DNA of 64,000 nt from a virus. Within the stretch, counting starts at the first letter, position 1. Each line of letters begins with the position of its first letter. The stretch spans positions 1 to 64,000 of the IMG/VR virus record IMGVR_UViG_3300032163_000012; one strand, 5' to 3'. A model generated the notes under the pieces. It worked only from the letters and a program-made list of their open reading frames with translations. It was not told the origin of the DNA and did not search any database. Positions 2,570 through 49,500 of the stretch are shown here, one piece after another. The position numbers were made by a program, and so were the translations under genes.

Positions 2570-3370
2570 ATGGCGATCGTAATTCGCCCGTCGTCGCTGC
2601 CTGGCTGGTCCGATTGCCAGTTAAGGACCGCCGCGCGCACGGCGCCGCAAATGTTCCTCGATCTCGGCTACGAGCTTCGCCAGTTGCCGCAGCGAGCAGG
2701 GCCGGCTATTGGCACAGCTACGCATGCGGCTGTTGCTTTTACCATGCAATGCAAAATAGACACTGGCGAAAGCGCGAACCAGACCGAAACGGAACAGGCA
2801 GGGCTTGAGGCGCTCAGCAAGTCGATAGAGCATGGAGTTGAATGGGATGGCGTATCGCCAAATTTCAACACGGCGCAGAAGCAGGTACTGCGCCACTACC
2901 GCGTGTTCCGGCTACACCTTGAGGATGATCTTCGCCCACGAACGGTCGAGCGGAGGATCGAGAAACTGACGAAGCGCGGGAACACGCTCTCCGGCCAGCC
3001 AGACGTTACTGACGATGGTGTAATGGACCTGAAAACTGGCGTCGCCAAGCGCGTGAACGGCCAACAATATGGGGCGTATGCCCTATTGCTGCGCGCCGAT
3101 GGCGATCCTGTCAGCCACATCACCGAGGACTACATCAAGCGCGTGGCGATCGACAAAGAACAGCCGCTGCCTGAGCAGATTCGTTACGACGTGGCGCTGT
3201 CAGAGCGCATTGCTGGGGCGACGATCCTGGACATGGAGCGCAAGTTCGAGGAGTTTGAGCGTGATGGCGACACCATGATTTTCAGCGCAAACACGGGCTC
3301 GATGCTTTGCAGCGACCGCTGGTGCCTCGCGTTCAAGACTTCCGCTTGCCCAATGAGCGTGAACAAGTGA
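2570..3370 (+). CDS. PD-(D/E)XK exonuclease, Cas4/RecB-like with possible Fe-S cluster
   Basis: ATG 2570 gives 266 residues. The order is an N-terminal SSLPGWSDCQLR with an early Cys, a helical part with IGTATHAAV, then SGQPDVTDDGVMDLKTG, which carries the nuclease D...D-x-K signature, then QQYGAYALL (QxxxY motif). The C-terminus has three Cys in LCSDRWCLAFKTSACP. One early Cys plus three late Cys is the arrangement of AddB/Cas4-type 4Fe-4S nucleases. It probably degrades or resects DNA ends in phage recombination, perhaps with the Rad50-like ATPase downstream. An alternative start at 2546 would add eight residues. Confidence 0.8.
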   Translation: MAIVIRPSSLPGWSDCQLRTAARTAPQMFLDLGYELRQLPQRAGPAIGTATHAAVAFTMQCKIDTGESANQTETEQAGLEALSKSIEHGVEWDGVSPNFNTAQKQVLRHYRVFRLHLEDDLRPRTVERRIEKLTKRGNTLSGQPDVTDDGVMDLKTGVAKRVNGQQYGAYALLLRADGDPVSHITEDYIKRVAIDKEQPLPEQIRYDVALSERIAGATILDMERKFEEFERDGDTMIFSANTGSMLCSDRWCLAFKTSACPMSVNK

Positions 3371-3882
3371 TTATCCAGCTTACCCAAGGTTTCGTCGCGC
3401 ACGTCGATGCAGATGATTACGACGCGCTGATGCACTTTTCCTGGTTCGCTACCCCGCGCAGAAAAAAATGGTACGCGCAAGCATGGGTGTTCGGTCAGCA
3501 CGTTTATATGCACCGCTTCCTTATGGGTGAACCAACAGGAATTGAGATCGATCACAGAGACAACGACGGCCTCAACAATAGGCGCGGAAACATACGTCAT
3601 TCGACTCGAACGCATCAAAACGCTAACCGAATGAAGTTCCGGGGTAGATCGCGCTTCAAGGGCGTGTACCCTATGCGGTCAGGTAAATGGGCCACGCAGT
3701 CGGCGAAAGCTGGTAAGTATATCTACATTGCATGCCATGAATCGGAGCAGGACGCGGCCCGTTGTTATAACGCGCTCGCGCGGTATCTGTTCGGTGAGCA
3801 TGCGCTTTTCAACGACGTGACTCCGCGCTTCCCGGTTCGCTCGTTGGCCTTGCGCTATATAAATCGATGGGAAAAAAGATAA
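3367..3882 (+). CDS. HNH homing-type endonuclease with AP2 domain
   Basis: I chose GTG 3367, which overlaps the upstream TGA as GTGA and gives the usual family start (VIIQLTQGFVAHVDADDYD). An HNH core follows (MHRFLMG, then EIDHRDNDGLNNRRGNIR, with the catalytic DH and the N of HNH). A C-terminal AP2-type DNA-binding segment begins around SRFKGVYPMRSGKWATQ. It makes a strand break at a specific site and is usually a selfish free-standing gene. Total length of 171 residues is typical. It sits between nuclease and helical genes without disrupting them. Confidence 0.85.
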   Translation: MIIQLTQGFVAHVDADDYDALMHFSWFATPRRKKWYAQAWVFGQHVYMHRFLMGEPTGIEIDHRDNDGLNNRRGNIRHSTRTHQNANRMKFRGRSRFKGVYPMRSGKWATQSAKAGKYIYIACHESEQDAARCYNALARYLFGEHALFNDVTPRFPVRSLALRYINRWEKR

Positions 3883-4064: not shown

Positions 4065-4408
4065 GCGAGGCCGAACTACTCAAGACGCTGGGCGAAACGA
4101 AGAAGGAAATGCAGTCGTCGCTGGCGAGCCTGATGGCGCTCCACGGAGCCCAGAAGGTGATGTTTGCGATGTCGCTGGTGAACGCGCCGAAGTTTATCTC
4201 GATGGCGAAAGAGGGCGGCATGTCCGATGAGTTGTCGTACATGCTCACTCAGCAGTTGCAGTTGATGCTGACCCAGTGGGGCCTGGCGGCCAAGTTTGAC
4301 CATGAGGAAATGTACAAGCTGGCGAATGGCATCCAGTCTCAAATGGCGTTGGTGGAGAACGATTTACAAGAGGCCGTGAACAGCGGCAATAACCCGAAGG
4401 AGAATTAG
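4061..4408 (+). CDS. Helical hypothetical protein (115 aa)
   Basis: This 115-residue protein is all helical, with Met-rich stretches and no membrane or catalytic motif. It begins in an ATGA overlap and ends directly before the ATG of the 367-residue gene, so it belongs to the early operon. No family recognised. Confidence 0.6.
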   Translation: MSEAELLKTLGETKKEMQSSLASLMALHGAQKVMFAMSLVNAPKFISMAKEGGMSDELSYMLTQQLQLMLTQWGLAAKFDHEEMYKLANGIQSQMALVENDLQEAVNSGNNPKEN

Positions 4409-5512
4409 ATGGCGAACGAACAGAGAGAAACACGCTTGAAGGATCCTATGCAGGAAGTGCTGGACCCGCTCCAGTTCCACCAGGGCGGCGCAGATCTGGG
4501 TGCTGTCGTTCCGGCCGGGCAGTCCGGCATGGCGCGCGCCGGGAGCTTTATGACCGGCATGCAGGGCGACATCATCACGGCGCAGCGCGTCGGCGTGCCG
4601 CGCAACATGAGCCGGATCCTGGCCAACATGAAGGCGCTGGCCACGGCCGCGGGCAAGGAGTACGTCTACGGCTGGGAAGTCAACGACCGGAAGAATAACC
4701 GGAAGGTGTGGATCGAGGGGCCGACGATCACCCTCGCCAACGACCTCGCGCGCGAGTACATGAACTGCCAGGTGGATTGCCGCGTCATGGACGAGGGCAA
4801 GCATTGGGTGTTCTACGCGCGCTTCGTGGACCTGGAAACCGGATTCACGATGGTCCGGGCCTACCAGCAGCGCAAAGGCCAGGACACCGGCATGAAGGAC
4901 GACCAGCGCAGCCTGGACATGGTGTTCCAGATCGGCCAGTCGAAGGCGATCCGCAATGTGGTTGTCAATGCGCTGCGCTCGCTTGTCAATTACGCCGTCG
5001 ACGCGGCCAAGGGCTCGCTGCTGGACAAGGTAGGCAAGAACCCGGAGGGCGCGCGCACGTGGATCAGGCAACAACTCAAGGACCTGGGCGTGGACATCAA
5101 GCGCGTCGAAGCGCTGTACGGCCGCACGTCGGAACACTGGACGACGCCGGACATGGCGCGGATCTACACCGAATTGCAATCGATTACCGACGGCATGATG
5201 AATGCCGAGGACGTGTATCCGGTACCGCAGAAGGAAGAAGCGGCCCGGAAGCGCGAGGACTCCAACCCGCTCGCCGGCAATCAAGGCCAAGGTGTGGGAA
5301 CCGCTGGAAATGGTGCGTCGGCGGGCGGTGCGGAGGCTCCACCGATTGGCCAGCCGACCGGAACCGAGGGCTCCGAGCCAGCAGGCAAGCCGCCAGGTGA
5401 CATGATGGATGACGCCGACGCTGCCCTGGGCGGAGGGACTAAAGCCGAGGCGCCTCCGGCGAAGAAAGTCGCGGGCAAGAAAAAAGCGAACCTGTTCGGC
5501 GGTGACGCATAG
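4409..5512 (+). CDS. Conserved phage protein, possible recombination/annealing protein
   Basis: This 367-residue protein has a conserved core (about residues 85-260) with EYVYGWEVNDRKNNRK, GPTITLANDLAREY, HWVFYARFVDLETGFT and IGQSKAIRNVVVNALRSL. The last 90 residues are Gly/Pro/Ala/Lys-rich and probably disordered, a tail typical of single-strand DNA-binding or annealing proteins. The core is common in phages (recall), but I cannot name its fold. Position between nuclease and Rad50-like genes suggests a role in recombination; that is inference only. Confidence 0.6.
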   Translation: MANEQRETRLKDPMQEVLDPLQFHQGGADLGAVVPAGQSGMARAGSFMTGMQGDIITAQRVGVPRNMSRILANMKALATAAGKEYVYGWEVNDRKNNRKVWIEGPTITLANDLAREYMNCQVDCRVMDEGKHWVFYARFVDLETGFTMVRAYQQRKGQDTGMKDDQRSLDMVFQIGQSKAIRNVVVNALRSLVNYAVDAAKGSLLDKVGKNPEGARTWIRQQLKDLGVDIKRVEALYGRTSEHWTTPDMARIYTELQSITDGMMNAEDVYPVPQKEEAARKREDSNPLAGNQGQGVGTAGNGASAGGAEAPPIGQPTGTEGSEPAGKPPGDMMDDADAALGGGTKAEAPPAKKVAGKKKANLFGGDA

Positions 5513-5514
5513 CC

Positions 5515-5994
5515 ATGGCAAGGCCGGCCCGCCCTTTGCGGGAACGCTTTTTTGAGAAGTTCCAGATTGGCGCTCCAGACGAGTGCTGGGAATGGACTCG
5601 CGCCAACAACAAAGGGTACGGCTCTATTTGGGACAACGACAAGAACCGGATGGAGGAGGCGCATCGGGTGTCCTGGGAGATTCATCGCGGCCCGGTACCG
5701 GAAGGGGTGTGCGTGCTGCATAACTGCGACAACCCTCCATGCGTGAACCCGAACCACCTGTTTCTTGGAACGAAGTCCGACAACTCGAAGGATATGTATT
5801 CCAAGGGAAGGCACAACGTCGCGTACCTCAAGGGCGAGCAACACCCAATGAGCAAATTGACCACCGCAGATGTGCTTGCACTCAGGGCTAGGCGCGAGGC
5901 TGGGGCGTCAAAACACGAATTAGCAGCCGAGTTTTTAATCACGCCCGATACGGCGTGGGAGATTTATACCCGCAGAACATGGAGACACGTATGA
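5515..5994 (+). CDS. HNH endonuclease (HNH_3 type)
   Basis: This 159-residue protein shows DECWEWTRANNKGYG, then the HNH core with EAHRVSWEIHRG, VCVLHNCDNPPCVNPNHLFLGT and NSKDMYSKGRH. These include the paired Cys residues and catalytic His of the HNH_3 family. The last 45 residues form a helix-turn-helix (LTTADVLALRARREAG...ELAAEF) likely used for DNA binding. It starts two bases after the upstream stop and overlaps the ATPase start by ATGA. Likely a selfish homing nuclease. Confidence 0.85.
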   Translation: MARPARPLRERFFEKFQIGAPDECWEWTRANNKGYGSIWDNDKNRMEEAHRVSWEIHRGPVPEGVCVLHNCDNPPCVNPNHLFLGTKSDNSKDMYSKGRHNVAYLKGEQHPMSKLTTADVLALRARREAGASKHELAAEFLITPDTAWEIYTRRTWRHV

Positions 5995-7685
5995 AAATTG
6001 TTGGGAAGGTAAGAGGATTCAGGGGGTGCGAGAAGGCCGATATTGAAATCGACAGGATCAGCCTCGTTTCTGGGCTCAATGGCGCCGGTAAATCGAGCCT
6101 GCTGCAGGCACTTGCTGCCGCCGCATGCTCACAGCCGATACCGTTCTTTGTGTCGAATCGTCCGGATAAACCAGCCCTCACCAAGACGGACGGAAAGCTG
6201 TTGCTCAGGGGCGGCATGGAGAAAGGTTATGCCACCATCGCGGTTGATGGGCAGGTGGTGTCCGAGGCCGCATGGCCTGGGCTTACTTCCTCAGGCAACG
6301 GGAAACTGCAATGCAGCTTGGTGGCGGCCGGTCTGATAAATCCGCTCGAAATGATCGAAGCCGACCGGCAACGCTTCTTTGCCGGGCTGCTGAACGCCGA
6401 CCCGACCATGGACGACCTCCGGGAAGCGCTCAAGGAGGCGATCCCGGCGCTCGCCGACCCGGATTACGTCGACGCCCTGGAGAAGGTCATTACCATGGCC
6501 CAGACGAACGGCTGGGACGTGGCGCACAAGCACTTCAAGGAACACGGCGCCCGCCGCAAGGGCGAGTGGGAAGGGAAGGCCGGAGAGTCGTTCGGCTCGA
6601 AGAAGGCGGCAGACTGGAAGCCGCAGGGGTGGCGCGCCGACCTGGAGGAGAAAACCCTCGAGGAGTTGGGCACGGCGTGCACCGAGGCGCAGGCGGCCTT
6701 GGAGAAGGCGCTCGCCGACGTCGCAACCGATGCCGCGGACCTGAAACACCTGTCCGAACTGTCCAGCGGCGAGGCCGTAGCCTGGAATGCGCTGAAACAG
6801 GCGGAAACGGCCCTGGAGGAGGCGCGCGCCGATTTGAAGGCCAAGGAGAACCAGAGGCAGGCGATCGTGATCCCCACCGCCATACCGTGCCCCCACTGCG
6901 GCGGTTTGGTCGATGTTGTCGGCGGCGGGCGCTCTTTCGTGCTCAAACAGTCGATGGCGAACGGGAAGGAGATCGAAACGGCCAAGAAAGCCTTCGAGGC
7001 GTCCACGGTGATGGTGCAGACGGCGCAAGCGGCCGCGGCGACGGCCCTGGATGTCTACAACGGCGCCAAGGGCGTGTACGAAGCGCACAAGGGCGCAGAC
7101 GGCCGCCTGACCGAGGCCAGGAAGCGCAAAGGGACCACAGAATCGGTGGACACCGCCCGTGACTACCTCGCCGGGCTCACGCGCGACAAGGACCTGATCG
7201 AGCGGCGCCAAGCATGCGAAACGCTTGCCGCCCAGATTGGGGCAAACCAGAAGCTGGTCGATATCCTGTCGCCCGAGGGCCTGCGCCGGCAGAAGTTGCA
7301 AAAGGCGCTCAAGGTGTCGAACGGGCAGCTCGCCGCGCTCTCAAGCGATGCAGGCTACGGCACCGTGACGATCGACGACGACCTGGAAATCCTATACGGC
7401 GGGCGGCGCTACTTCCTCCTGTCCCAGTCCGAGCAGTACCGGGTGCGCGCGGTGATCCAGATCTACGTGGCGATGCACGACAAGTCGCCGCTGGTGATCT
7501 TCGATAGCGCCGACGTGCTCGACCAGGACGGAAGGAATGGCCTGTTCGCGCTCATGCAGGAAGTCGATGGCATCAGCTTCCTGGTGGGCATGACGGTGCT
7601 CTCCAAGAAGAACGTGCCGGATCTGGCCAAGGCTGGGCTCGGCGCGAGCTATTGGGTGGCCGACGGCACGGCGGCGCCGCTGTGA
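5991..7685 (+). CDS. Rad50/SMC-like AAA ATPase with CxxC hook
   Basis: ATG 5991 gives 564 residues. Walker A is GLNGAGKSS (residues 28-36), the middle is long coiled coil rich in Ala/Glu/Lys, a zinc-hook-like CPHC sits at residues 300-303 near the centre of the coil, and the C-terminus carries a Walker B-type LVIFDSADVLD. This is the layout of Rad50/SbcC-type ATPases, shortened for a phage. Such proteins bridge DNA ends with a nuclease partner. The RecB/Cas4-like nuclease at 2570-3370 is a candidate partner, though no Mre11/SbcD-like gene is visible. It overlaps both neighbours by four bases. Confidence 0.85.
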   Translation: MKIVGKVRGFRGCEKADIEIDRISLVSGLNGAGKSSLLQALAAAACSQPIPFFVSNRPDKPALTKTDGKLLLRGGMEKGYATIAVDGQVVSEAAWPGLTSSGNGKLQCSLVAAGLINPLEMIEADRQRFFAGLLNADPTMDDLREALKEAIPALADPDYVDALEKVITMAQTNGWDVAHKHFKEHGARRKGEWEGKAGESFGSKKAADWKPQGWRADLEEKTLEELGTACTEAQAALEKALADVATDAADLKHLSELSSGEAVAWNALKQAETALEEARADLKAKENQRQAIVIPTAIPCPHCGGLVDVVGGGRSFVLKQSMANGKEIETAKKAFEASTVMVQTAQAAAATALDVYNGAKGVYEAHKGADGRLTEARKRKGTTESVDTARDYLAGLTRDKDLIERRQACETLAAQIGANQKLVDILSPEGLRRQKLQKALKVSNGQLAALSSDAGYGTVTIDDDLEILYGGRRYFLLSQSEQYRVRAVIQIYVAMHDKSPLVIFDSADVLDQDGRNGLFALMQEVDGISFLVGMTVLSKKNVPDLAKAGLGASYWVADGTAAPL

Positions 7686-7948
7686 GCTACGCATACCTGG
7701 ATGTTCGGCCGCGAATCTTCACCGAATCAGGCCAAGTGATGTTTATTCACATCAGGGACACAGCGAAGAAACTGCTTGCTTCCGCTGGGGCATTCCGCTT
7801 GCAGGAAGTAATGCAAGGCTGTTCCGGTGACACTTGGACGATGCTGGCGTGCGTCGATCGAATGGTGGAGTTGAAAGAGATAGTCGAAGTGACTTTACCA
7901 GGAACCGTAGCCGGTCAGCATCGCGTTTTCATAGCATCGTGGTTATGA
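7682..7948 (+). CDS. Hypothetical protein (88 aa, GTG start)
   Basis: The GTG at 7682 overlaps the ATPase stop (GTGA). The protein has a helical core (RLQEVMQGCSGDTWTMLACVDRMVEL) followed by a strand pair, which looks like a small winged-helix fold. No family is named with confidence. It overlaps the next gene by four bases. Confidence 0.6.
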   Translation: MSYAYLDVRPRIFTESGQVMFIHIRDTAKKLLASAGAFRLQEVMQGCSGDTWTMLACVDRMVELKEIVEVTLPGTVAGQHRVFIASWL

Positions 7949-8061
7949 AATCCACCATGCAACGCCAGGCAGACGAACTGCGCAAGCTGCGGATCGGCTG
8001 CTGGGTGTTGCTTTTCATCCTGGCCGCGATGTCGGCCAAGTATTGGGGGCTGGTTCCGTGA
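7945..8061 (+). CDS. Small single-span membrane protein (38 aa)
   Basis: This 38-residue protein has a basic N-terminus (QRQADELRKLRIG) and one membrane span (CWVLLFILAAMSAKYWGLV). It starts in an ATGA overlap and ends in a GTGA overlap, so it is an operon member despite its size. Function unknown. Confidence 0.55.
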   Translation: MKSTMQRQADELRKLRIGCWVLLFILAAMSAKYWGLVP

Positions 8062-8270
8062 ACTACCACGCCCTGGTGCGCCGCATCCGTGCGTGCGAAG
8101 GTGAGGCCGCGGCGCAGCTTCTGCTGGAGCATGCTATTCACGACCTCGTAGACGCGCTACATCCGTTCGCCATTGAATTCGAGATAGCGGACGCCGCCGG
8201 CGAGTTGCAGCACTGGCCGCCGAACGAAGTGAAGAACTGCGAGGCCGCCTGGAGGGCATTGAGGAAATGA
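8058..8270 (+). CDS. Hypothetical protein (70 aa, GTG start)
   Basis: The GTG at 8058 overlaps the upstream TGA. The protein is helical and acidic (EGEAAAQLLLEHAIHDLVDAL) with a C-terminal CEAAWRALRK. No family recognised. It overlaps the next start by ATGA. Confidence 0.55.
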   Translation: MNYHALVRRIRACEGEAAAQLLLEHAIHDLVDALHPFAIEFEIADAAGELQHWPPNEVKNCEAAWRALRK

Positions 8271-8353
8271 TTCGGCGCGAACCGTTGAACTGGATATGGC
8301 TGGCCGGGTGCGCGTGCGTGGCGTTCACGTTCGCCTACCTGGCGCTGGCCTGA
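8267..8353 (+). CDS. Very small membrane protein (28 aa)
   Basis: The start is an ATGA overlap with the previous gene. The product has a charged start (MIRREPLNW) and one hydrophobic stretch of about 19 residues to the C-terminus. The overlap start and membrane character support it; length alone would not. Confidence 0.45.
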   Translation: MIRREPLNWIWLAGCACVAFTFAYLALA

Positions 8354-8364
8354 CTGGAGGAAGA

Positions 8365-8646
8365 ATGGCAAACAGAGAACAGCGGCGCAGCCCGCTAGTC
8401 ACGAACATGCTGCGCAAGATCGGCATCGAGGAGGATGCGATCGAGGCAGCCTGGCCGCAGGTGCTGACGGCCTGCACCACGGTCCTGCAGAAGGCGCGCA
8501 TGCAGGGCGTCGTCAACAACGGGCACCTGATGGCGTTCGGTGGGTCGCTGATCGTGGATACGCTGTCACATGCGCCCGAGGCGGATCGCGCGCGCATGTT
8601 CGACGACTACGTGGCCGACCTGCGCAAGGAGATTGTTCCGGAATGA
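8365..8646 (+). CDS. Hypothetical protein (93 aa)
   Basis: ATG 8365 has a strong ribosome binding site (GGAGGAA, six bases upstream). The product is helical, with a short basic start (MANREQRRS) and an IGIEEDAIEAAWPQVL segment. No membrane segment. It overlaps the sigma-like gene by ATGA. No family recognised. Confidence 0.6.
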   Translation: MANREQRRSPLVTNMLRKIGIEEDAIEAAWPQVLTACTTVLQKARMQGVVNNGHLMAFGGSLIVDTLSHAPEADRARMFDDYVADLRKEIVPE

Positions 8647-9290
8647 AAGAGTATCGGGTCAAGGTCTCCGTTCGGAACAACCTGCTGCTGTCAGCGATCG
8701 AGGCCGCCGGCTATGCGGAATACGGTGGGCTGGCTCGCTTTTGCAGAGAGAACGACATGGAGCCTAACGATTTGAGCGGGCTGATTTCAATGCGGCATCG
8801 CCCAATCAATCAGCACGGTGAATTTATCCCTGCAGCGAAAACGATTATGGAGGCACTCGGCGCGTGCCCATCCGACCTGTGGGCCGACGAACAACTGATG
8901 ATGAAATTGAAGCGCAACACCGGAGAAACGACGATGGACTTCGGCGCTGTGCAGGCGATGCTCGAACAGCACACTGAGGCTATGTCGCTTCCAAGCCCGG
9001 AGGATGTGTATGAGGCAAACGAGGAAACGAGATTGGTGAAGCAAGTGCTTCTTGGGAAGCACATCCCCACAGACGCTAGATCCGCATATAAGTTATCCAC
9101 AAAAGAAATTGCCGTTTTAAGCATGCACCATGGGATCTCTGGAAATGATCCAAAAACTCTAGCGGAAATCGGGGCCGAGTTTGGCGTTACTCAAGAGCGG
9201 GTTAGACAAATAGAAGGGAGAGCCCTAAGAAAACTCCGCCATCCTTCAAACGCCGACGTGCTTAAAAAAGCCATGGTTGTTCCAGAATGA
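8643..9290 (+). CDS. Sigma-region-4-like transcription regulator
   Basis: This 215-residue protein ends in a clear sigma70 region 4 helix-turn-helix: TLAEIGAEFGVTQERVRQIEGRALRKLRHP (about residues 171-200), the part of sigma that contacts the -35 box. The first 85 residues form a different helical domain (NNLLLSAIEAAGYAEYGGLARFCRE...LWADEQLMMKL) seen in phage regulators that resemble small HTH proteins. Region 2 is absent, so it cannot act as a full sigma factor and may instead steer host RNA polymerase to phage promoters, for example for late genes. A perfect DnaA-box-like nonamer at 9093-9101 lies inside the coding sequence. Confidence 0.8.
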   Translation: MKEYRVKVSVRNNLLLSAIEAAGYAEYGGLARFCRENDMEPNDLSGLISMRHRPINQHGEFIPAAKTIMEALGACPSDLWADEQLMMKLKRNTGETTMDFGAVQAMLEQHTEAMSLPSPEDVYEANEETRLVKQVLLGKHIPTDARSAYKLSTKEIAVLSMHHGISGNDPKTLAEIGAEFGVTQERVRQIEGRALRKLRHPSNADVLKKAMVVPE

Positions 9291-9685
9291 CGGCCGTCAT
9301 GCGCGCCTCGCCGCTGTTCGGTGAGCCCAAGCCATTCCTGACAGACATCTACCGCAAGCGCATGGTGCTGATGATGATCTGCACGCACTCAGACTGGTTC
9401 AGGAGCGACGACCTGGATTGGGTGACGCGCAACTACCACGTGTGGGAGGCGTTCGAGCACGAGGCCAACAAGGTATGGGATCGAGGCCGGCGCCACTACA
9501 GCGCCCGCACGATCGGAGAGTACCTGCGCCACGAAAGCACGCTGCGCGAGGACGAGAACGAACACGGCTGGAAGATCAACGATCACGCCTGGCCGTCGCT
9601 AGCGCGCCTGTACGTGCTGATGTACCCGGAGCGGTTCTGCTTCTTCGAGCGGAGGCCGGGAACGTCCGGGGTGCGCGCGCTGTGA
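9287..9685 (+). CDS. Conserved phage hypothetical protein (132 aa)
   Basis: This 132-residue protein has a core with WEAFEHEANKVWDRGRRHYSARTIGEYLRHE followed by KINDHAWPSLARLYVLMYPE. That order (helix with GRxHYSARTI, then NxxxxxLARLY) is shared by a phage family of unknown function, in my recollection. It overlaps the sigma-like gene by ATGA. Confidence 0.65.
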   Translation: MTAVMRASPLFGEPKPFLTDIYRKRMVLMMICTHSDWFRSDDLDWVTRNYHVWEAFEHEANKVWDRGRRHYSARTIGEYLRHESTLREDENEHGWKINDHAWPSLARLYVLMYPERFCFFERRPGTSGVRAL

Positions 9686-9761
9686 CTATTGACGAAATTC
9701 CGACATCGGCGTACCGTTGACCTGTCCGGGTGGTGCCTGGGCGCTCACGCAAGGAATCAAA

Positions 9762-9884
9762 TTGAACCGTAGCAACAAGCAGTCCATCGGAGCGACAGCC
9801 GCACAGGCGAGTCGTGTTTTCTTGCGCGCGCCAGACCTGGGCAGGGTTCACCGCCTGCCAGCGGCTGTCCCTCGGATGGATTGA
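9762..9884 (+). CDS. Possible small protein (40 aa, TTG start)
   Basis: The 202-nt gap before the DUF1376 gene contains a TTG-started frame preceded by AAGGA at a suitable distance. The product is basic and ends PAAVPRMD. Its TGA lies three bases before the next ATG, which fits operon packing. Support is weak. The same gap also has two TTGAC-type boxes (9704 and 9718) without good -10 partners, so it may instead hold regulatory sequence. Confidence 0.3.
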   Translation: MNRSNKQSIGATAAQASRVFLRAPDLGRVHRLPAAVPRMD

Positions 9885-9887
9885 ACT

Positions 9888-10799
9888 ATGAACTATTACC
9901 GTCGATATATGGCCGATTATTTGTCGAAAACAGGCTCACTTTCTATTCTGGAACACGGCGCGTACAACCTCATGTTGGATGCGTACTATTCGAGCGAAAA
10001 ACCGCTCCCAGCAGACTACAAATTGCTCTATCGCTTATGCCGGGCAATGTCAGCTTCTGAAAGGGCCGCCGTCAAGAGTGTAGCGGACGCTTACTTTCCT
10101 GTAGGCCAAGATGGGATGCGGCATAACGAGCGGGCAGACAAGGAACTGGCTGTAGCAAAATCAACCATAGAAAAGCAGAGAATATCAGGGGTTGAGGCAG
10201 CCAATAAGCGATGGGGTAATGAAAGAAAACTCAATGAGTCAACCCATAGGTCAACCCATAGGTCAATAGATGGGTCTGAGATACAACCGTCAACCACCAA
10301 CCATCAGCCGTTAACCGTCAACCACCAACCTCCAGCCTCTAACCACCAACCAAGTCAACCCCTTGTCGCTGCCGCTTCCGCGGCATCGACCGCGCGGCAG
10401 GGCGGGGGGAATGGGTCAATAAAACCAGAAGCGCCAACAAGCAAGACCTGGGCTGCCTACACGGAAGCCTATCAACACCGGCACGGCGTTGAGCCGGTGC
10501 GCAACCGGCAGATGAACAGCATGATGAAGCAGTTCGTCGAGCGCATAGGTGTCGAGGAATCACCTGGGGTAGCCGCGTTCTACGTTGTGAGCAACAGGGG
10601 GCTCTACGTGTCGGCCAAGCACCCGGTCAACCTTTTGCTGCGCGATGCCGAGAGCCTTAGAACCGAATGGGCCACCGGAAACCAAGGAACTGAAACCCAG
10701 GCACGAAGCACCGACAAAACTGCGGCTATCGGCAACGTGTTCGGAAAACTAATCGCAGAAACTGAAGCGAAGGGTAAAAAACATGGCGACCCATTCTAA
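9888..10799 (+). CDS. DUF1376 replication initiator-like protein
   Basis: The N-terminal 90 residues show the DUF1376 pattern: MNYYRRYMADYLSKTGSLSILEHGAYNLMLDAYY, then KPLPADYKLLYRLCRA and AYFPVGQDGMRHNERADKEL. This winged-helix-like domain occurs in phage replication initiators of the lambda O type. A low-complexity linker of Asn/His/Gln/Pro/Thr repeats (residues about 115-160) separates it from a C-terminal helical domain (WAAYTEAYQHRHGVEPVRNRQMNSMMKQF). The total of 303 residues is normal. The linker DNA could contain origin repeats, as in lambda O, because short motifs such as CAACCACCAACC recur at 10290-10350. Confidence 0.8.
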   Translation: MNYYRRYMADYLSKTGSLSILEHGAYNLMLDAYYSSEKPLPADYKLLYRLCRAMSASERAAVKSVADAYFPVGQDGMRHNERADKELAVAKSTIEKQRISGVEAANKRWGNERKLNESTHRSTHRSIDGSEIQPSTTNHQPLTVNHQPPASNHQPSQPLVAAASAASTARQGGGNGSIKPEAPTSKTWAAYTEAYQHRHGVEPVRNRQMNSMMKQFVERIGVEESPGVAAFYVVSNRGLYVSAKHPVNLLLRDAESLRTEWATGNQGTETQARSTDKTAAIGNVFGKLIAETEAKGKKHGDPF

Positions 10800-13360: not shown

Positions 13361-13647
13361 GGTTGCACCACCAGAACCGACACCTGGCCTACCTCGTCAC
13401 GGTTCAACGCTTCCGCGCCATCGATATCGTTGTCCATCGCGTATTCGATCGCGCGATAAATCGCCATCGATAGCTGTTCCCTCTGCAGCGTTCCCATGCC
13501 AACGCAATGAGGATCTACCTGCACCACGAACTCAAGCGTAGTCTGCTCGTTTAACCTCCGAACAGCGGCGCGCTTGGCGCGCTCGCGCTTCTGGAAGGCT
13601 TTGACCTCGGCGAGTGGGTGCGGCGCCCCCTGTCTGATATCGCTCAT
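13357..13647 (-). CDS. Hypothetical protein (96 aa)
   Basis: A basic helical N-terminus (AEVKAFQKRERAKRAAVRRLNEQ) precedes a mixed C-terminal domain (TTLEFVVQVDPHCVGMG, then AIYRAIEYAMDNDIDGAEAL). It overlaps both neighbours by four bases. No family recognised. Confidence 0.6.
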   Translation of the reverse strand: MSDIRQGAPHPLAEVKAFQKRERAKRAAVRRLNEQTTLEFVVQVDPHCVGMGTLQREQLSMAIYRAIEYAMDNDIDGAEALNRDEVGQVSVLVVQP

Positions 13648-14342
13648 GATTTCACCTGTGCAGGTTTCACCACCATCAACGCGAGCGCGATGGCCGCACG
13701 GTACTGCATCGCGTGCTCGTTGTCGCCGTGCGTTTTCTGGATGGCTTCATTAAGCTGATATTCCGTTCCGGAGAAACAGCCGGTCGTGAAGCGAATGCCA
13801 AGTTTCACGTCGGCGTGCACGGTGAGTTGCGCGTTGCGCGATCCGATTGGGCCAATAAAGAAAAAATCCGCATCGCCGAACACCAGCGCATTGCCGTACA
13901 CCCACGCATCGCCGGACACCCGCGCATTGCCGTACACCCACGCATCGCCGGACACCCACGCATCGCCGGACACCCGCGCATTGCCGAACACCAGCGCATC
14001 GCCGAACACCAGCGCATCGCCGAACACCCGCGCATTGCCGGACACCTGCGCATCGCCGGACACCCGCGCATTGCCGGACACCCACGCATCGCCGGACACC
14101 CACGCATCGCCGAACACCTGCGCATCGCCGAACACCAGCGCATCGCCGGACACCTGCGCATCGCCGAACACCCACGCATCGCCGGACACCAGCGCATCTG
14201 GAGAGAAATTTTCTTCCCCCTTGATCCACCCACCAATTTCTCCTTTGGTGACGACGCCGAATGACAGCGTGGCGCGGATTTGCTTGAGGGTTGTCCCTAA
14301 ATGAACTTTTACCTCTCCGGTGAACTCGTATTTTCGTTTCAT
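13644..14342 (-). CDS. Hexapeptide-repeat beta-solenoid protein
   Basis: This 232-residue protein starts behind a good ribosome binding site (AAGGAGC). An N-terminal segment (MKRKYEFTGEVKVHLGTTLKQIRAT and IGGWIKGEENF) leads into about 17 tandem six-residue units of the form G-D/N-A-x-V-S/F/Y, about residues 50-155. This is the left-handed or polymer-like beta-helix pattern seen in bacterial acyltransferases and in several phage proteins of unknown role. A globular C-terminus follows (GSRNAQLTVHADVKLGIRF...). The units are nearly identical at DNA level, so the copy number probably changes by recombination. Function unknown. Confidence 0.75.
   Translation of the reverse strand: MKRKYEFTGEVKVHLGTTLKQIRATLSFGVVTKGEIGGWIKGEENFSPDALVSGDAWVFGDAQVSGDALVFGDAQVFGDAWVSGDAWVSGNARVSGDAQVSGNARVFGDALVFGDALVFGNARVSGDAWVSGDAWVYGNARVSGDAWVYGNALVFGDADFFFIGPIGSRNAQLTVHADVKLGIRFTTGCFSGTEYQLNEAIQKTHGDNEHAMQYRAAIALALMVVKPAQVKS
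13870..14200. repeat. 18-bp tandem repeats encoding hexapeptide units
   Basis: About 17 units of 18 bp, of the type CATCGCCGGACACCCACG on the plus strand, follow one another and differ at a few positions (Ser/Phe/Tyr and Trp/Gln/Leu/Arg codons). The repeat contains no stop in most frames of either strand, so several long spurious frames appear over it. It is coding sequence of the gene at 13644-14342, not a CRISPR array, because there are no unique spacers. Confidence 0.85.
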
Positions 14343-17949: not shown

Positions 17950-18311
17950 ACCGTCCAATGGGCGTCCATATCCCTACCAGCACGGCGCCGTCGCTCCTTC
18001 GGTGTCGGGTTCGGCCGGGATGCAGCGTGTCGATGCGGGTCGATGGCGTTGCCGCCCACCTTCCATGCCGAGCGGGGTGCGGCCATCAGGATCTGCGCGC
18101 CGCGTGCGCGTGCCATGCGCACGGCACGGGGGCTGCGCGCGGACCGGCATCGCGTCGCGGCGGGTCCCATGGAGGACAGCGTGTAGAGAGCGGGTTCTCT
18201 CTCTCCCCTTTCACTGGGTTCCACGTGGAACATTTGACGAAACCCCAACAGGTGGAGCAGAGTTCGGCTGGCAGTGTCTAAAATTTTTTAAAATTAACTG
18301 GAGAAAAAATC
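17950..18311. other. Non-coding region carrying parS-like site and AT-rich stretch
   Basis: This 362-nt gap between terS and the next gene has no convincing gene. It holds the perfect parS-like palindrome at 18217-18232 and a pyrimidine tract (18197-18211). A strongly AT-rich stretch (about 18278-18296, a run of A/T including TTTTTT) is unusual in this GC-rich genome and lies next to the ribosome binding site (CTGGAG) for the gene at 18312. An unwinding element or a phage-type promoter is possible. Confidence 0.5.
18217..18232. promoter_or_regulatory. parS-like ParB binding site
   Basis: GGTTCCACGTGGAACA reads TGTTCCACGTGGAACC on the other strand. The central 14 bases are a perfect palindrome and the 16-mer agrees with chromosomal parS sites bound by ParB in Pseudomonas and other proteobacteria (recall). 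No ParA or stand-alone ParB gene is present in the window, so host ParB is the likely ligand. Confidence 0.7.
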
Positions 18312-18599
18312 ATGAGTTACAGCTTCAACGCACGTGGCGCGAACAAGTCGGCGCTGATGGATGCCGTGAAAGAGGAAATGAGAATGGTGGTGTCGCAGCA
18401 GCCGTCGCACAAGCAGGATCGTGACGTCGTGCTCGGTGCTGCGGAATCGCTGGCCGATTTGCTTATGCCGGATGCGAGCAAGGACATGTTCACGCAGATG
18501 AACGGGTCGCTCTCGACCAATGGCGAGGGCCACGTGACGTATGCGAGCGTCAGCATCACCGTGGACCTGGTCGAAAAGCTGCCGCCAAAAGCTGCGTAG
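18312..18599 (+). CDS. Hypothetical protein (95 aa)
   Basis: ATG 18312 follows CTGGAG. The protein has a helical first half (NKSALMDAVKEEMRMVVSQQPSHKQDRDVVLGAAESLADLL) and a strand-rich second half (VTYASVSITVDLVEKL). No family recognised. Next to the parS-like site, but no ParB-like motif is present. Confidence 0.65.
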   Translation: MSYSFNARGANKSALMDAVKEEMRMVVSQQPSHKQDRDVVLGAAESLADLLMPDASKDMFTQMNGSLSTNGEGHVTYASVSITVDLVEKLPPKAA

Positions 18600-18791
18600 G
18601 TGCGCAACGCGAAGGAAAAGCCGGAGCCGAGGCCGATCACGGCGCAGGTGCCGGATTATTGCGCGCCGTTCGGTGTTGACCAGCGCGGGAAAGAGCACCA
18701 GCAGCAGTTCGGAGCGCGTGAAATGGTGTCGGATGGCGAGCGGACGCAGGCGCCAGGGTGCTATCGCAGGCTTCCGACGTGCGCGGACTGA
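18600..18791 (+). CDS. Small hypothetical protein (63 aa, GTG start)
   Basis: GTG 18600 follows the upstream TAG directly. The product is Pro-rich at the start (KEKPEPRPITAQVPDYCAPFGVDQRGKEHQQQFGAREMV), with two widely spaced Cys and a CYRRLPTCAD ending. No family recognised. Confidence 0.5.
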   Translation: MRNAKEKPEPRPITAQVPDYCAPFGVDQRGKEHQQQFGAREMVSDGERTQAPGCYRRLPTCAD

Positions 18792-18795
18792 CACC

Positions 18796-18804
18796 TGTGG
18801 ATAA
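18796..18804 (-). other. Perfect DnaA-box nonamer
   Basis: TGTGGATAA is the complement of TTATCCACA, the E. coli-type DnaA box, and lies in a 48-nt intergenic gap. Copies also occur at 9093-9101 and 38584-38592 inside genes. One such site alone does not define an origin. Confidence 0.35.
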
Positions 18805-18839
18805 GTCAAAAATTGGCGCGGAACCCCACGGAGGTACGC

Positions 18840-18983
18840 ATGGTGAGGAATTGGCGGGGGCACTGCCGCCAGTGGTGGCGGGCGAGGCGGCCGCGGGCGC
18901 ATTACCGGCTGCAGATGCGCCGGCTGCGCTCGAAGCGGACGTGCCCGGGGGTGCTGGCGGGCTTGACGCGGGGCGGGAAGTAG
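18840..18983 (+). CDS. Arg/Trp-rich small protein (47 aa)
   Basis: ATG 18840 has a strong ribosome binding site (GGAGG, six bases upstream). The product is extremely basic and contains about 18 Arg or Lys (for example HCRQWWRARRPRAHYRL and MRRLRSKRTCPG). Another frame across this stretch runs on through the tRNA gene and is rejected. A nucleic-acid or membrane-binding peptide is possible. Confidence 0.5.
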   Translation: MVRNWRGHCRQWWRARRPRAHYRLQMRRLRSKRTCPGVLAGLTRGGK

Positions 18984-19075
18984 GTCTATCCTTGAATCGA
19001 GGGGCGCCACAAGCTGAGGGAGTTGGCACCGAGCCCAATGGCCGGGTTTCCGAGGCGGCGCCCATCACGAACAGT

Positions 19076-19151
19076 CGCGGGGTAGAGCAGTTGGCAGCTC
19101 GCCTGGCTCATAACCAGGAGGTCGCTGGTTCAAGTCCAGCCCTCGCAACCA
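19076..19151 (+). tRNA. tRNA-Met (CAT), initiator-like
   Basis: A complete 76-nt cloverleaf is visible. The acceptor stem is 19076-19082 with 19141-19147, the anticodon CAT is at 19109-19111 in the loop CTCATAA, the anticodon stem is CCTGG/CCAGG, the T stem is GCTGG/CCAGC with TTCAAGT, and CCA is encoded. Base 1 is C facing A72 (mismatch) and the D stem has A11:T24, both hallmarks of bacterial initiator tRNA. The anticodon stem keeps two of the three initiator G:C pairs (positions 30:40 and 31:39), with T29:A41 at the third. Confidence 0.9.
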
Positions 19152-19320
19152 CGGATACACCAAGCGCGCGGCAACTGCAGCACCCAGGGGCGGCGGAAGC
19201 GGGGCCAGACACCGCGCGATCCGCCGACCCCTCCCTCGATCTTCCTCCCTGGCCATGGCCGTGCTCACCGCGAGCAGCGCCGGCGCCTTCCGGCCTATTT
19301 CCGCACCAGAGATTCGGCTG

Positions 19321-19584
19321 ATGACTGCCTCGATTTCCTCGCTACCAATCTGGAAGAAGGACAGCACCCCGGCTGAGTGGCTGCAGGAGATCGCCACCAT
19401 TGCGATGGAGCACCCGGAGCGCTTCGCACGCATCGTTGTCGTGTGCGAGGAAGAAAACAAGGAAGGGTTCCCGTACAAGACGCGCTTCTGGTCGCGTAAT
19501 CACAAGACGAACACCGATATCATCGGCTCGCTGCAAGTGTGCGCGCTCGAGGTATTCGAATACATGAAGGGGCGCCGCGAATGA
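19321..19584 (+). CDS. Conserved small protein upstream of terL (87 aa)
   Basis: I chose ATG 19321 (MTASISSLPIWKK), where homologous phage proteins usually begin in my recollection; ATG 19255 would add 22 residues, and neither has a clear ribosome binding site. The product is a small alpha/beta protein (TPAEWLQEIATIAMEHPERFARIVVVCEE, then SLQVCALEVFEYMKG). It overlaps terL by four bases. Function unknown. Confidence 0.65.
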   Translation: MTASISSLPIWKKDSTPAEWLQEIATIAMEHPERFARIVVVCEEENKEGFPYKTRFWSRNHKTNTDIIGSLQVCALEVFEYMKGRRE

Positions 19585-21179
19585 GCGCCGTCCTCGATCG
19601 CTTCGGCACTGCTACCGGCCCGTACATCGGGGATTACAACGCCGAGCCCACCTGCGCCAAGTTTCACCTGTCCGATGCCTTCATTCGCGGGATTCGCGGG
19701 CCGATGGGCTCCGGGAAGTCCGTCGCCTGCGTCATGGAAATGGTGATCCGCGCGCACCAGCAGGCCCCTGATCGCCACGGCAAGCGCCGCACCCGCTGGG
19801 GGGCGATTCGCAACACCTACGGCGAGCTCAAAACCACGACGATGAAAACCTTCTCGGCGTGGGTACCGGAGTCGATCGCGCCGATCAACCGCGGCGAGCC
19901 GATGACCGCGCGCATGGTCCTGCGCCTACCAGATCGCACCACCGTCGACATGGAAGTGGTGTTCATTTCCTGCGACAAGCCGGCCGACGTCGGCAAATTG
20001 AAGTCACTCGACCTGACCGGCCTGTGGCTGAACGAAGCATCCGAGCTGGATAACGCCATTCTGGACATGGGAACTGGCCGCGTCGGGCGTTATCCGGAGA
20101 AGAAGGACGCGCCGTTCACCTGGGCGGGCGTCATCATGGACACGAACTCCATGGACGACGACCACTGGTGGTATGGCCTCGCCGAGGGCGCGGACGATCC
20201 TGACGAACAGATGCGCATCGACGAGTTGAAGAAGAACCTGCGCGAACAGCTTGCCCGCCTGGGCATGGACCGCAACCTGATGGCCTTTTTCGAGCAGCCG
20301 CCTGCGCTCCTCGAGGCGCAGGGATCCTACGTCCCGAACCCTGCCGCCGAGAACGTGAACGGCCAGCCCATGGGGCACGCCTACTGGCTGCTGCTGGTCG
20401 CCGGCAAGGCGAAGGAATGGGTCGATATCTATGTCATGAACAAGTACGGCAAGGTCATCGACGGCCTCGCCTGCTACAACGCCGAGTACGACGACCTGAT
20501 TCACGGCGCAAAGCGGCAACTGAAACCCATAGACGGAAAAGTGATCCGCATTGGATTGGACTTTGGCCTCTCGCCGGCCGCCATCCCGGGCCAGTGTTCC
20601 GCCACCGGGCGCCTGCTTGTGCTCGGCGAGTGCGTCCCGCCGGAGCGCTCGATCGGCATGACGCGCTTTGCCAACGACATGCTCAAGCAGTACCTGCTCG
20701 AGCGTTTCGGGCGGGCAGACGGGAACGGGGATCCGTGGAAGTACATCGTTGTCGGCGACCCGGCAGGCGATAAGCGTAGCGAGAACGACGAGGTAAAGGG
20801 ATTTCAGATCGTGCGCGATGCTGGATTCGATATCGAGGAGGCGCCTACCAACAATTTCAGCGCGCGCCGCGACGCCGTTGCCTGGTTTCTAAACAAGACG
20901 AACGGTTTTGCGATGGACCAATCGTGCATCATGCTCCGCAAGGGATTCCGTGGCGGATACCACTACCGCCGCGTCCAAATGAGCGGCCCCGCAAGGTACT
21001 CGCAAGAAGCCCACTCAAATAAATACACACATCCCCATGACGGACTGCAGTATTTAGCGTTACCATACGTGGCAATCGAGGTTCCGGCCTACGGAATGAA
21101 GGCGATACCGAAGTGGGCACAGAAAATGAACTCTGGTGCGAAAGCGAACAAGCCCTGGGCAAAACGGGCAGGGCGATAG
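19581..21179 (+). CDS. terL: Terminase large subunit
   Basis: This 532-residue protein is the packaging motor ATPase and nuclease. Walker A is GPMGSGKS (residues 40-47), followed by a Walker B-like LTGLWLNEASEL, where the acidic E follows N. The C-terminal RNase H-fold nuclease begins at RIGLDFGLSPAA, whose Asp is the first metal ligand, and continues with VVGDPAGDKRSENDE and the late HPHDGLQYLALP, which offers the last Asp. ATG 19581 overlaps the upstream gene as ATGA. Length and motif order are normal. Confidence 0.93.
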   Translation: MSAVLDRFGTATGPYIGDYNAEPTCAKFHLSDAFIRGIRGPMGSGKSVACVMEMVIRAHQQAPDRHGKRRTRWGAIRNTYGELKTTTMKTFSAWVPESIAPINRGEPMTARMVLRLPDRTTVDMEVVFISCDKPADVGKLKSLDLTGLWLNEASELDNAILDMGTGRVGRYPEKKDAPFTWAGVIMDTNSMDDDHWWYGLAEGADDPDEQMRIDELKKNLREQLARLGMDRNLMAFFEQPPALLEAQGSYVPNPAAENVNGQPMGHAYWLLLVAGKAKEWVDIYVMNKYGKVIDGLACYNAEYDDLIHGAKRQLKPIDGKVIRIGLDFGLSPAAIPGQCSATGRLLVLGECVPPERSIGMTRFANDMLKQYLLERFGRADGNGDPWKYIVVGDPAGDKRSENDEVKGFQIVRDAGFDIEEAPTNNFSARRDAVAWFLNKTNGFAMDQSCIMLRKGFRGGYHYRRVQMSGPARYSQEAHSNKYTHPHDGLQYLALPYVAIEVPAYGMKAIPKWAQKMNSGAKANKPWAKRAGR

Positions 21180-45193: not shown

Positions 45194-46579
45194 ATGGCCA
45201 TCAACTTCGCAAGCGCCCGCCCGGGCATTGACCTGTTCAACGCCAATGTGGCGCGCGACGACGCGCAGCGCAGGCAGGAGGAGCACGACTTCATGCTCCG
45301 CAGGCAGTACGAGCAGGCGCAGGGCGCGGACAAGGGCATGCGCAACGCAATCGCGGCCTACTATGCCCAGAAACAACCAGCGGCCGTGGCTCCGGTACCG
45401 ACGACCGCTTTCCATCCGACGCCTGCCATGGTGCCAAATCCCGCCGCCACGACGCCGGTGGTGTCGCCGGACCAGTCGATGAACCCTGCCGACAACCCGG
45501 ACTACGGTGGGCCGACCAGCTCCGCGCCGATGCCGAACGCCGTCCCGCGCGCCGGTGTCGACGTGCCCGCGACCGTTGCCGCGCCTCCCATGCCTGCCGC
45601 CGCAGCGGCGCCAGCGGCAGCGCAGCCAGCGCCAGGAGCGCGCCAGGGCGGCGGCTTCGGCACGATGATGGGTGAACTGGCGAAGCAACCCGGTACCGGC
45701 GCATCGATGATGTCCCTGTTCGGCACAGACCTTGCGAGCCAGCGCTCCGCTGGTGTCGAACGAGCAAAGCTACACCAAGAGGGACTAAAACTATTCATGG
45801 ATGCGTCGAAAAACGACGATGTTGCGTCGATGCGCGCCATTGCTGCGAAATACGACTTCGGTATTCCGCCAGAGGTTCTGAACAATCGTGCCGTGATGGC
45901 TAAAATCGCTTCCATGGCCAAGGTGGCGAAAACGATCGGGATCACGGATGACGAGCGTGCCCTTGGATTCGCCAAGGGATACATGCACGCAGAAGCGGCT
46001 GGCGCAGACCCAAACACTTCGTTTCAGGCCGCAATCGCCGAAGCTCAAAAGACGCAACCAACCTTCAAAGCGGTGCACTGGGATCAGACACCCGAGGGCG
46101 AGGTAACTGGGTTCGACGCGCAGGGAAACGCAAAAGCTACAGGAGTGAAAGGGAAACAGCAGAAATGGCAGGTTTTCGGTCCTGGTGGCGCCGGCGAAAG
46201 ACCAACCGCGACGGTCCAGAACCGCGACGACATGGCGAAGCGCCTGAAAGTCGCATACCCGGGCCTGGACGATGGCGTTGTGCAGCGCCTAGTGGTCAAC
46301 CCGCGCGCCCAGATTACCGCACAGGACATTATGCGCACCGAGGCGAGCATGCGCAAGCTCACCAACATGGGTCGCCCGCTCTACAAGACTGACGCCGAGG
46401 CGCACACCGCAGCCGTGGCGGCCGTTCGCGCCGCGCAGCGCGATGCTGGCGTGCTTGTCGGTGGGGAGGGCGCGCCTGGTGCTACAGCGCCTGGCCCTGC
46501 GGACAGCGGACCAGCCGGGCGCGTGCCGCCGCCGGTGCGCATGCGCTTTGACTCGAGTGGAAATGAGATCTCGCAATGA
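45194..46579 (+). CDS. Internal virion protein candidate (461 aa)
   Basis: This 461-residue protein has a basic helical start (RPGIDLFNANVARDDAQRRQEEHDFMLRRQYEQAQ), then a Pro/Ala-rich linker (about residues 65-160). A helical middle follows (MRAIAAKYDFGIPPEVLNNRAVMAKIASMAKVAKTIGITDDERALGFAKGYMH). The next part contains AVHWDQTPEGEVTGFDAQGNAKATG, and the C-terminus is Pro/Ala-rich. No enzyme motif. It overlaps the giant gene by four bases, so the two are translated together and may enter the cell together. Confidence 0.6.
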   Translation: MAINFASARPGIDLFNANVARDDAQRRQEEHDFMLRRQYEQAQGADKGMRNAIAAYYAQKQPAAVAPVPTTAFHPTPAMVPNPAATTPVVSPDQSMNPADNPDYGGPTSSAPMPNAVPRAGVDVPATVAAPPMPAAAAAPAAAQPAPGARQGGGFGTMMGELAKQPGTGASMMSLFGTDLASQRSAGVERAKLHQEGLKLFMDASKNDDVASMRAIAAKYDFGIPPEVLNNRAVMAKIASMAKVAKTIGITDDERALGFAKGYMHAEAAGADPNTSFQAAIAEAQKTQPTFKAVHWDQTPEGEVTGFDAQGNAKATGVKGKQQKWQVFGPGGAGERPTATVQNRDDMAKRLKVAYPGLDDGVVQRLVVNPRAQITAQDIMRTEASMRKLTNMGRPLYKTDAEAHTAAVAAVRAAQRDAGVLVGGEGAPGATAPGPADSGPAGRVPPPVRMRFDSSGNEISQ

Positions 46580-49500
46580 GCGTAGAGGCCGAGCTTAGCG
46601 ACGGCACAATCCTCGAGTTCCCGGACGGGACTGCGCCTGACGTCGTCCGCCGGACCGTAAAGCGCCAGCTTGGGCTGGCCGGGCCGGTCAAGCCAGCACC
46701 TGCGCCAGCACCGACAGCGGAGGAATTGGCGGCCAGCAAGCCGGCGCGTAGCACTCTCACGCGCGGCGGGCAGCCTGTAATCCAGCCAGCCACCATGCCT
46801 GTCATCACTGAGCCTACCGGGTCAGTCATGGACTCGTTTGTGGCTAGGCCGCAGGAGCAGCTAGCGAACATAGCCCAGTCACTGCCACAAACGGAGATCG
46901 GAAATGAAACGACGCAACGCGAAGCGGTTAAAACCAATGACGGACAAATTGCGCTTGGCACTCAGGCGAGCGGCCCAAGGGTGGAAATTCCACGACGAAG
47001 GCGCGAAGCCACACCAGCCGAGTCTGTTGACGCCGCGGTAAAGCTGGCCGCCGACGTCGAGCGCGTGCGCAGCGCAAAGTATCTGACGCAGCCGACGATC
47101 GAGGAGGCGGCGCAGAGCAGCCTGACGCGGCCGTTGACCGAAGCGGAGAAGCCGCGCGCGAGCTTGCGCTCACTGCCTGGCGACATCGCCACGGCCGCAC
47201 GGCAAACGCCGAACGCTATCGCTGCCGGGGTTTCGTCCTTCCTGCAGGGCGGGGCACCGGAGGATGTATTCGGCTCTCCGGACTGGAAGAACGAGGCGAT
47301 CAAGGAAGCGCGCTACAACGCGGAGCAGTCGTCCAAGAGCAAGGATTCGCAGGATAAGTACGTCGATTTCCTGGGGATCAAACTCAACCGGAACGATGTG
47401 CGCACGGCGCCACAAAATCTGGCATTTTCCGTCGTTTCGATGGGCGCCTCCGTGCTCGCCGGGCTCGGCGGGTCTGTCGTTGGCGCGCTCGCCGGGCCAG
47501 TCGGATCGCGCGTTGTCGGAGCGGCCGCTGCTGGCGGCGCCGGCGGAGCAGCAGCCTACCGCATGGACACCAACAACTTCATGCGCGATTTGCGCCAGTA
47601 CATGGACAAGGCTGCGCAGGGCCAGCTAGGGCGACCGTTGACGGACAAGGAGTTCATCGATGTCGCCACGGCGCCGTCGATGCACGACGCGGCGAAGCAG
47701 ATTGGACTTGCCATACGGTCGAGCAAGAGCGGCCAGGCGCTGGCGCAGGAGCACGGACTGCACGAGGCCGGATGGGAGGCGATCGGCAACATGATTATGC
47801 TGGGCGCTGGCAAGTACATCATCAAAGAGGCGCTGAAAGGCGGGATCCTGAAACCGGCGCTCGGAGCCGTTGTAGGAACGGCCGGCGAAGTCGGAACGGA
47901 AATGCCCACCCAGATGGGCCAGCACAACGTCGAAGTCGCCGCAGGCATGTCGCGCGAGGCGCCGCGGTCCTGGACAAGCGCATCCGACTGGTGGAAATCG
48001 TTCGAGGAAGTGGCCGGGCCAACCATCCTGACCACCTTGGCAATGGGCGGCATGGCTGGCGGCGGCGCGGTGGCTGCGCGCGGCGTGCAGCGCATGGACG
48101 AGCGCCTGCGCCCAGGGGCGGCGATCGGGCGCGCGCTCGAGGCCGATATCGCCGACCGCGGGATGCCGCCCGGAGCGGCAGACGCCGCAGCGCGCGCCTC
48201 CCTGAGCCTCCAGCCTGGCACGCCGGGCGACTTGTCCGCGGCGATGGCGCATCCGGGCACCTTGCAGGAATACATCGCCGAGCGCGACGCAAAGGCAGCA
48301 GAGGCCGCAGCCGTAGCTGCCGCAGCGCAGCCGCCCGTAGCGCCAGCGCCCGCCAGCGCGCCGGTAGCAGAGGCCCAGCCGCCGGCCGGAGCGCCTGTAG
48401 AGGCTCCTGCGGCACCGGCAGGAACCCAGGCCGATGGCGAGCTGGGCACGTTTACGTGGATTGACGGGGAAGTGTCGCGCGGGACGTCTGAAGAAGGCGG
48501 AACCATACTCAAGCTCGGAGATCAGCGGATTCCAGTTACTCCGGAAGATGGGACGTGGGGGCCGGCGCCGGAGGGCGAGAACACGCCAGCGAAGCCGGTG
48601 AAGGTGGAAACGGCGCAGCACGTCGACTTGGCCAGCCAGGGCATAGCCGCCGCGCCCACCGACGCGCAGAAGAAGGCTGGGACCTACCAGAAAGGCCACA
48701 TCGACCTGCAGGGCCTGAAAATCAGCCTGGAGAACGCGAGGGGCAGCGAGCGCACCGGCATTGACGCCGACGGAGAGCGTTGGAGCACCGTCATGCCTGC
48801 CGCGTATGGATACATAAAACGCACAGAGGGCGCCGACGGCGATCAGGTCGACGTCTACGTGGGCGATGTCCCGGAAAGCCAGCAGGTGTGGATCGTTGAC
48901 CAGATCGACCCTGCCACCGGAAAGTTCGATGAGCACAAGGTCATGCTCGGGTTCACGACCAAGGCGCACGCCGTTGCCACGTATCACACCGCCTTCAACG
49001 ACAACAGCGGGCCGTCGCGCGTTGGTTCAGTAACCGGGATGTCGGTGCAGCAGTTCAAGGACGATTTCCTGAAAGGCCACGACCTAACCAAGCCGTTCGG
49101 GTATTTTGAAAAACGGCCAGCAGCACCACAACCGAAGGAGGCACCAAATGCCCAAACAGTACGAAGCGATGCGGGACAAGTTCGCCAAGGGGGCGCCGAA
49201 GGACAGCCCGGCCTACAACCAGGCGCAGAGCAAGGCGGCGGCAATCTACAACAGCCGTCACCAAGCGGCACCAATGTCGGCCGCCCACCCGGAGGGGGCG
49301 CCGAAACAGTCACCGCGCAGCGGCCTGTCAACGAAGCTGGGCCGCCCGGCACCGGCGGGGATGCCAGCAATCAGCCAGTTTCACAGCCGCAAATAGGGAG
49401 AAACAGGTTCCAGCTCGATCGACAACTCACAGCCTTGCGCCTCGACCACAAGAAGCTAGTGCAAGGTTTGCCGGTCGCCGAAGATATGGCGATGAACGAC

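Follow-up and report, generated by a model that had tools for sequence, protein, structure and literature searches.

A host-type parS site among the packaging genes of a phage and its probable recruitment of host ParB

The terminase locus and its parS site

The stretch of DNA analyzed here, referred to below as the window, comprises 64,000 nucleotides of a 64,725-base virus record, and contains a parS-like site in the interval that follows the gene for the small terminase subunit (Table 1). The stop codon of this gene lies 267 bases before the site, the next plausible open reading frame (ORF) is found 79 bases after it, and the gene for the large terminase subunit (TerL) begins approximately 1.35 kb downstream. 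The codon-position GC pattern typical of the phage genes is missing from the ORFs that overlap the site mechanically, which bears out the statement of the first-pass annotation that the site is non-coding. Repeats and iterons were sought around the site, and a promoter-like site at the palindrome, and none was found. The parS site, the 95-aa ORF, and the tRNA-Met gene belong to a 1.6-kb insert (17950–19580) that splits the terminase genes; in the nearest TerL relative (L002), which is 48% identical, terS and terL are adjacent to each other, without a gap. The best match of the tRNA-Met in the bacterial class searched is 88%, which is not diagnostic of the host.

The site, GGTTCCACGTGGAACA, contains a perfect 14-bp palindrome (18218–18231) that corresponds to the parS core, and it agrees with the 16-bp consensus of chromosomal parS, TGTTYCACGTGRAACA, at every position but the first (15 of 16), at which the consensus T is replaced by G. 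The first-pass annotation had described a perfect parS; this description holds for the 14-bp palindrome, and requires correction for the 16-bp consensus. The presence of the palindrome, its occurrence as a single copy, and a match beyond chance expectation in 64 kb had also been claimed, and are all confirmed. GGTTCCACGTGGAACA is the sole match to the parS core in the whole virus record, as well as the sole match to TGTTCCACGTGGAACA at up to three mismatches within the window, and the first-order Markov model of the window predicts 0.00025 occurrences of GTTCCACGTGGAAC and 0.0009 occurrences of the core GTTYCACGTGRAAC. Palindromes of at least 14 bp are seen five times in the window, with approximately five expected; it is therefore the agreement with parS that stands out, and the symmetry as such is unremarkable.

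Table 1. Coordinates of the features at the terminase locus (positions in the window).
Feature	Position	Strand	Remarks
Terminase small subunit, 302 aa	17041..17949	+	Terminase_2, PF03592
Intergenic region with parS site	17950..18311	.	Without significant RNA structure
Orphan chromosomal-type parS site GGTTCCACGTGGAACA	18217..18232	.	15/16 of consensus; identical to PAO1 parS1/parS4, opposite strand
95-aa ORF, function unknown, GGAG in front	18312..18599	+	Phage-like codon-position GC; no relatives found
tRNA-Met (CAT)	19076..19151	+	
Terminase large subunit (TerL)	19581..21179	+	

Host parS sites and the search for partition genes

The parS1 and parS4 sites of Pseudomonas aeruginosa PAO1, TGTTCCACGTGGAACC, are the exact reverse complement of GGTTCCACGTGGAACA, and these chromosomal sites thus present the same 16 bases, letter for letter, on the opposite strand. 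P. aeruginosa ParB binds parS1 and parS4 slightly more weakly than it binds perfect palindromes, and parS5, which has a changed centre and a further change beside it, is poorly bound (PMC4368675). The host parS sites read in proteobacterial genomes number 52; both outer consensus bases are present at 30 of them and one at 21, and the exact 16 bases of GGTTCCACGTGGAACA are found at four. A match at 15 of 16 positions lies inside this range of host sites and, together with the identity to PAO1 parS1 and parS4, supports the earlier claim that the site is a host-type parS by sequence. As GGTTCCACGTGGAACA deviates no more than host sites normally do, the ParB of a host of this kind should bind it, and binding by the ParB of a parS-using host is highly probable.

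The host genomes surveyed were those of one GTDB class, which includes a betaproteobacterial MAG harboring a prophage-like relative (42% in TerL). The parS core is present in 47 of the 56 genomes of this class, and a reversed control pattern is present in none. In this MAG, the source of the closest genome-borne relative, a parS of its own lies approximately 3.5 kb from its parB. The phage site differs from chromosomal sites in its setting. Chromosomal parS is located near oriC and parAB, and in the sampled proteobacterial genomes it is often paired, with approximately 620 bases between the two sites, whereas the phage site is single and stands alone among packaging genes.

Pfam profile searches of the virus record gave no match to ParB_N (PF02195), to the ParA-type AAA_31 (PF13614), or to a tyrosine integrase; the first two results uphold the earlier observation that no parA or free parB is visible. 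The record also encodes a 4436-aa polyvalent protein (46576–59886, + strand) with inorganic pyrophosphatase, AAA_34, and Strawberry-notch-type helicase C-terminal domains. The idea that a phage ParB is hidden inside this protein was rejected, as a ParB domain was not found there. Because the virus record is without detectable parAB, the site is best described as a host-type parS in a phage and not as a chromosomal centromere, and the phage, having no detectable ParB gene, probably borrows the ParB of its host. A phage or plasmid ParABS system of the P1 type would likewise give DNA partition, but such a system brings its own parA and parB, neither of which is detectable in this record. The combination of a parS site in the phage genome with no phage ParB is the one found in phi29; several sites are distributed on the phi29 genome, whereas one is present here.

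Orphan parS sites in other viral genomes

Searches by TerL, by TerS, by the 95-aa ORF, and by the site with its flank found no close relatives that carry the site. Among the loci of the TerL relatives, an intact parS-like core occurs only in L079, where it lies elsewhere in the contig, and parS was not seen at the corresponding place in these relatives. As no close relative of the phage was found, viral contigs in general were surveyed, with a palindrome of equal composition to the parS core serving as the control. Both outer consensus bases are present at 60 of 121 core sites and at 11 of 121 control-palindrome sites among the matches listed, and, on the same footing, 52 of 127 perfect 16-mers are intergenic, compared with 1 of 121 control sites. 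Each of these two contrasts among the matches listed has a nominal P < 1e-11, a value to be read with the related contigs not being independent. Of 44 long viral contigs that contain a perfect site, none has a ParB domain, against 3 of the 43 control contigs, again among the matches listed, and this difference alone is not significant. The viral-contig parS set, among the matches listed, is strongly non-random in both outer bases and placement; orphan sites of this type are far commoner in viral contigs than the matched control, and viral contigs in general give the site strong indirect support. Individual contigs show further arrangements: one (L246) carries five perfect parS 16-mers within approximately 6 kb (4324–10457), and a group of related contigs (L184 at 310–349, and also L212, L240, L249, and L250) carries a C/G-form and a T/A-form perfect parS whose starts are approximately 24 bases apart.

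In a phage collection, 171 records were matched by the parS query, compared with 34 by the control palindrome, counted per record with repeated strains included. Part of the 171-record count is background, because some of the matched phages are Klebsiella phages, whose hosts are not known to have chromosomal ParABS. Among named phages, phi29 has four perfect parS sites in 19 kb, spread over the genome, XD2 has four sites, three of which are perfect, and Lana and KPP25 have one site each; no ParB is present in any of these phages. Pseudomonas phage phiPsa374, which also has no ParB, carries parS in its direct terminal repeat (L385, 388–406), and the site is consequently found at both genome ends (389–404 and 98150–98165).

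The occurrence of parS in a phage without ParB is already known from phi29, and the site described here adds a further case. We know of no documented case besides phi29, and the literature searched contained none. Orphan host-type parS may be a widespread and repeatedly evolved phage device that recruits host ParB in many unrelated families and hosts, with this window as one instance; this generalization is put forward tentatively, with doubt and belief close to balance. If it is true, phi29 would stand as the earliest known example of a general strategy, and if phages commonly carry the host centromere site, the chromosome-sorting machinery of the host would be a routine part of phage biology, with a bearing on the location of phage DNA, its inheritance by both daughter cells, and the timing of late-gene expression. 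This question could be addressed with the named phages XD2, Lana, KPP25, and phiPsa374 in laboratory hosts from which parB has been deleted.

Conservation of such a site could be followed in an unrelated phage family, for which 79 relatives were fetched by the capsid protein alone. A parS-like site with at most one mismatch is located just after the capsid gene in 11 of the 79 relatives, all of which belong to the closest subclade, and control patterns are found in none. In 9 of these 11 conserved sites the centre is changed (to CATG or ATGT), and not every parS-like phage palindrome can therefore be regarded as a clean ParB site. Syntenic changed-centre palindromes of this kind (TGTTCCACATGGAACA, TGTTCCATGTGGAACA, and TGTTTCACATGAAACA) are seen in L425–L446, approximately 50 bases past the capsid gene and inside a longer palindrome. 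Because the flanks extend the palindrome in the capsid family, it may act there as an RNA hairpin or be bound by something other than ParB. The window site is unlike the sites of this family in that its flanks do not extend the palindrome.

Function of the site and competing explanations

The copy in the window is probably under selection, with a moderate confidence that is set by its intergenic place and by a mixture fit of host-like and random outer bases. This fit, made on GC-rich viral contigs among the matches listed, assigns sites with exactly one outer mismatch to the real class with a probability of approximately 0.6. The same fit leaves approximately 0.4 for the background class at one outer mismatch, as would suit a palindrome that arose by drift, that host ParB would still bind, and that is unselected and of no useful effect. 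Such a chance origin also agrees with the single copy and its one outer mismatch, with the absence of parS from the corresponding place in TerL relatives, and with the scanning of thousands of windows, which is bound to give some chance matches. However, the expectation of 0.0009 per window, the intergenic position, and the strongly non-random outer bases and placement of the viral-contig set among the matches listed all argue against it, and chance is considered rather unlikely.

The explanation favored here is an orphan parS by which host ParB is brought to the phage DNA, most likely so that this DNA is positioned or co-segregated, and this explanation is reasonably probable. Positioning or co-segregation is taken as the most likely purpose because of the analogy with phi29 and Spo0J: in the account of Meijer et al. 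(2005) given in PMC9437464, Spo0J, which is the ParB of the host, entraps the phi29 genome in the spore. The two phages have in common a host-type parS and no phage ParB, and in phi29, as far as that account goes, host ParB acts on phage DNA. They differ in that phi29 has four sites, all perfect and of the T/C-mixed form, and a sporulating Bacillus host with Spo0A control, whereas the present phage has one near-perfect site of the C/G form. The presence of a single site here, compared with four in phi29 and in XD2, counts against the explanation, as does the outer mismatch.

We infer ParB binding, spreading, and benefit at this site as follows. After entry, the palindrome would be recognized by the chromosomal ParB of the host, which would load at the site as a CTP-dependent clamp and then spread across the flanking late genes. 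Host ParB, with ParA, could in this way hold the phage genome and distribute it alongside the host origin region. The benefit would most likely be that phage DNA is positioned and inherited by both daughters while lysis is deferred.

The main functional rival to positioning is silencing, because ParB silences genes that adjoin parS, as has been reported for its spreading from these sites (PMC4368675). Spreading ParB may damp the transcription of terminase and head genes, either in the early phase of infection or while the phage persists in a carrier state; the site does lie among late genes, and several other phage sites adjoin head genes. In contrast, terminase as the nearest gene is only mildly commoner than in the control, and the phi29 sites are spread over the genome. 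Silencing would be a less expected use, of fairly low probability on an estimate that overlaps with the one for recruitment as a whole, and silencing of late genes is less likely than positioning or co-segregation.

It is very unlikely that the palindrome is an operator bound by a phage regulator, or an RNA hairpin, with an accidental likeness to parS. Its position upstream of an ORF would suit such an element, as would the one other phage family in which similar palindromes are part of longer hairpins and have variable centres. Yet the window offers no second copy for a regulator and no promoter-like site at the palindrome, and the RNA element was rejected, as the region folds no better than shuffled sequences and Rfam yields no hit other than the tRNA.

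A direct role in packaging, in which ParB beside the terminase genes would mark or condense DNA for packaging, is the least supported function and highly improbable: the site is 267 bases from terS, parS lies inside the phiPsa374 terminal repeat, and a perfect site lies within 1.5 kb of TerL in 4 of 15 independent viral contigs among the matches listed (1.04 expected, P 0.015, with a post hoc threshold), but most perfect sites among the matches listed are far from TerL, a pac or cos site is not known in this phage, and in the nearest relative the terminase genes are not set apart by a 1.6-kb gap. The comparison of the genes nearest to perfect and control sites, in which terminase is mildly higher for the former, is not decisive in this respect, and the link with packaging that the first-pass annotation had suggested is not sustained by such weak post hoc evidence.

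Several other genes of the phage genome were noted in the course of the analysis. A possible phage sigma factor, with a sigma-70 region 4 domain, is encoded at 8643–9290 on the + strand, and a YdcK-type beta-solenoid repeat protein with weak similarity to bactofilin is encoded at 13644–14342 on the − strand. Three HNH endonuclease genes are also present, two on the + strand (3307–3882 and 5515–5994) and one on the − strand (62965–63582).
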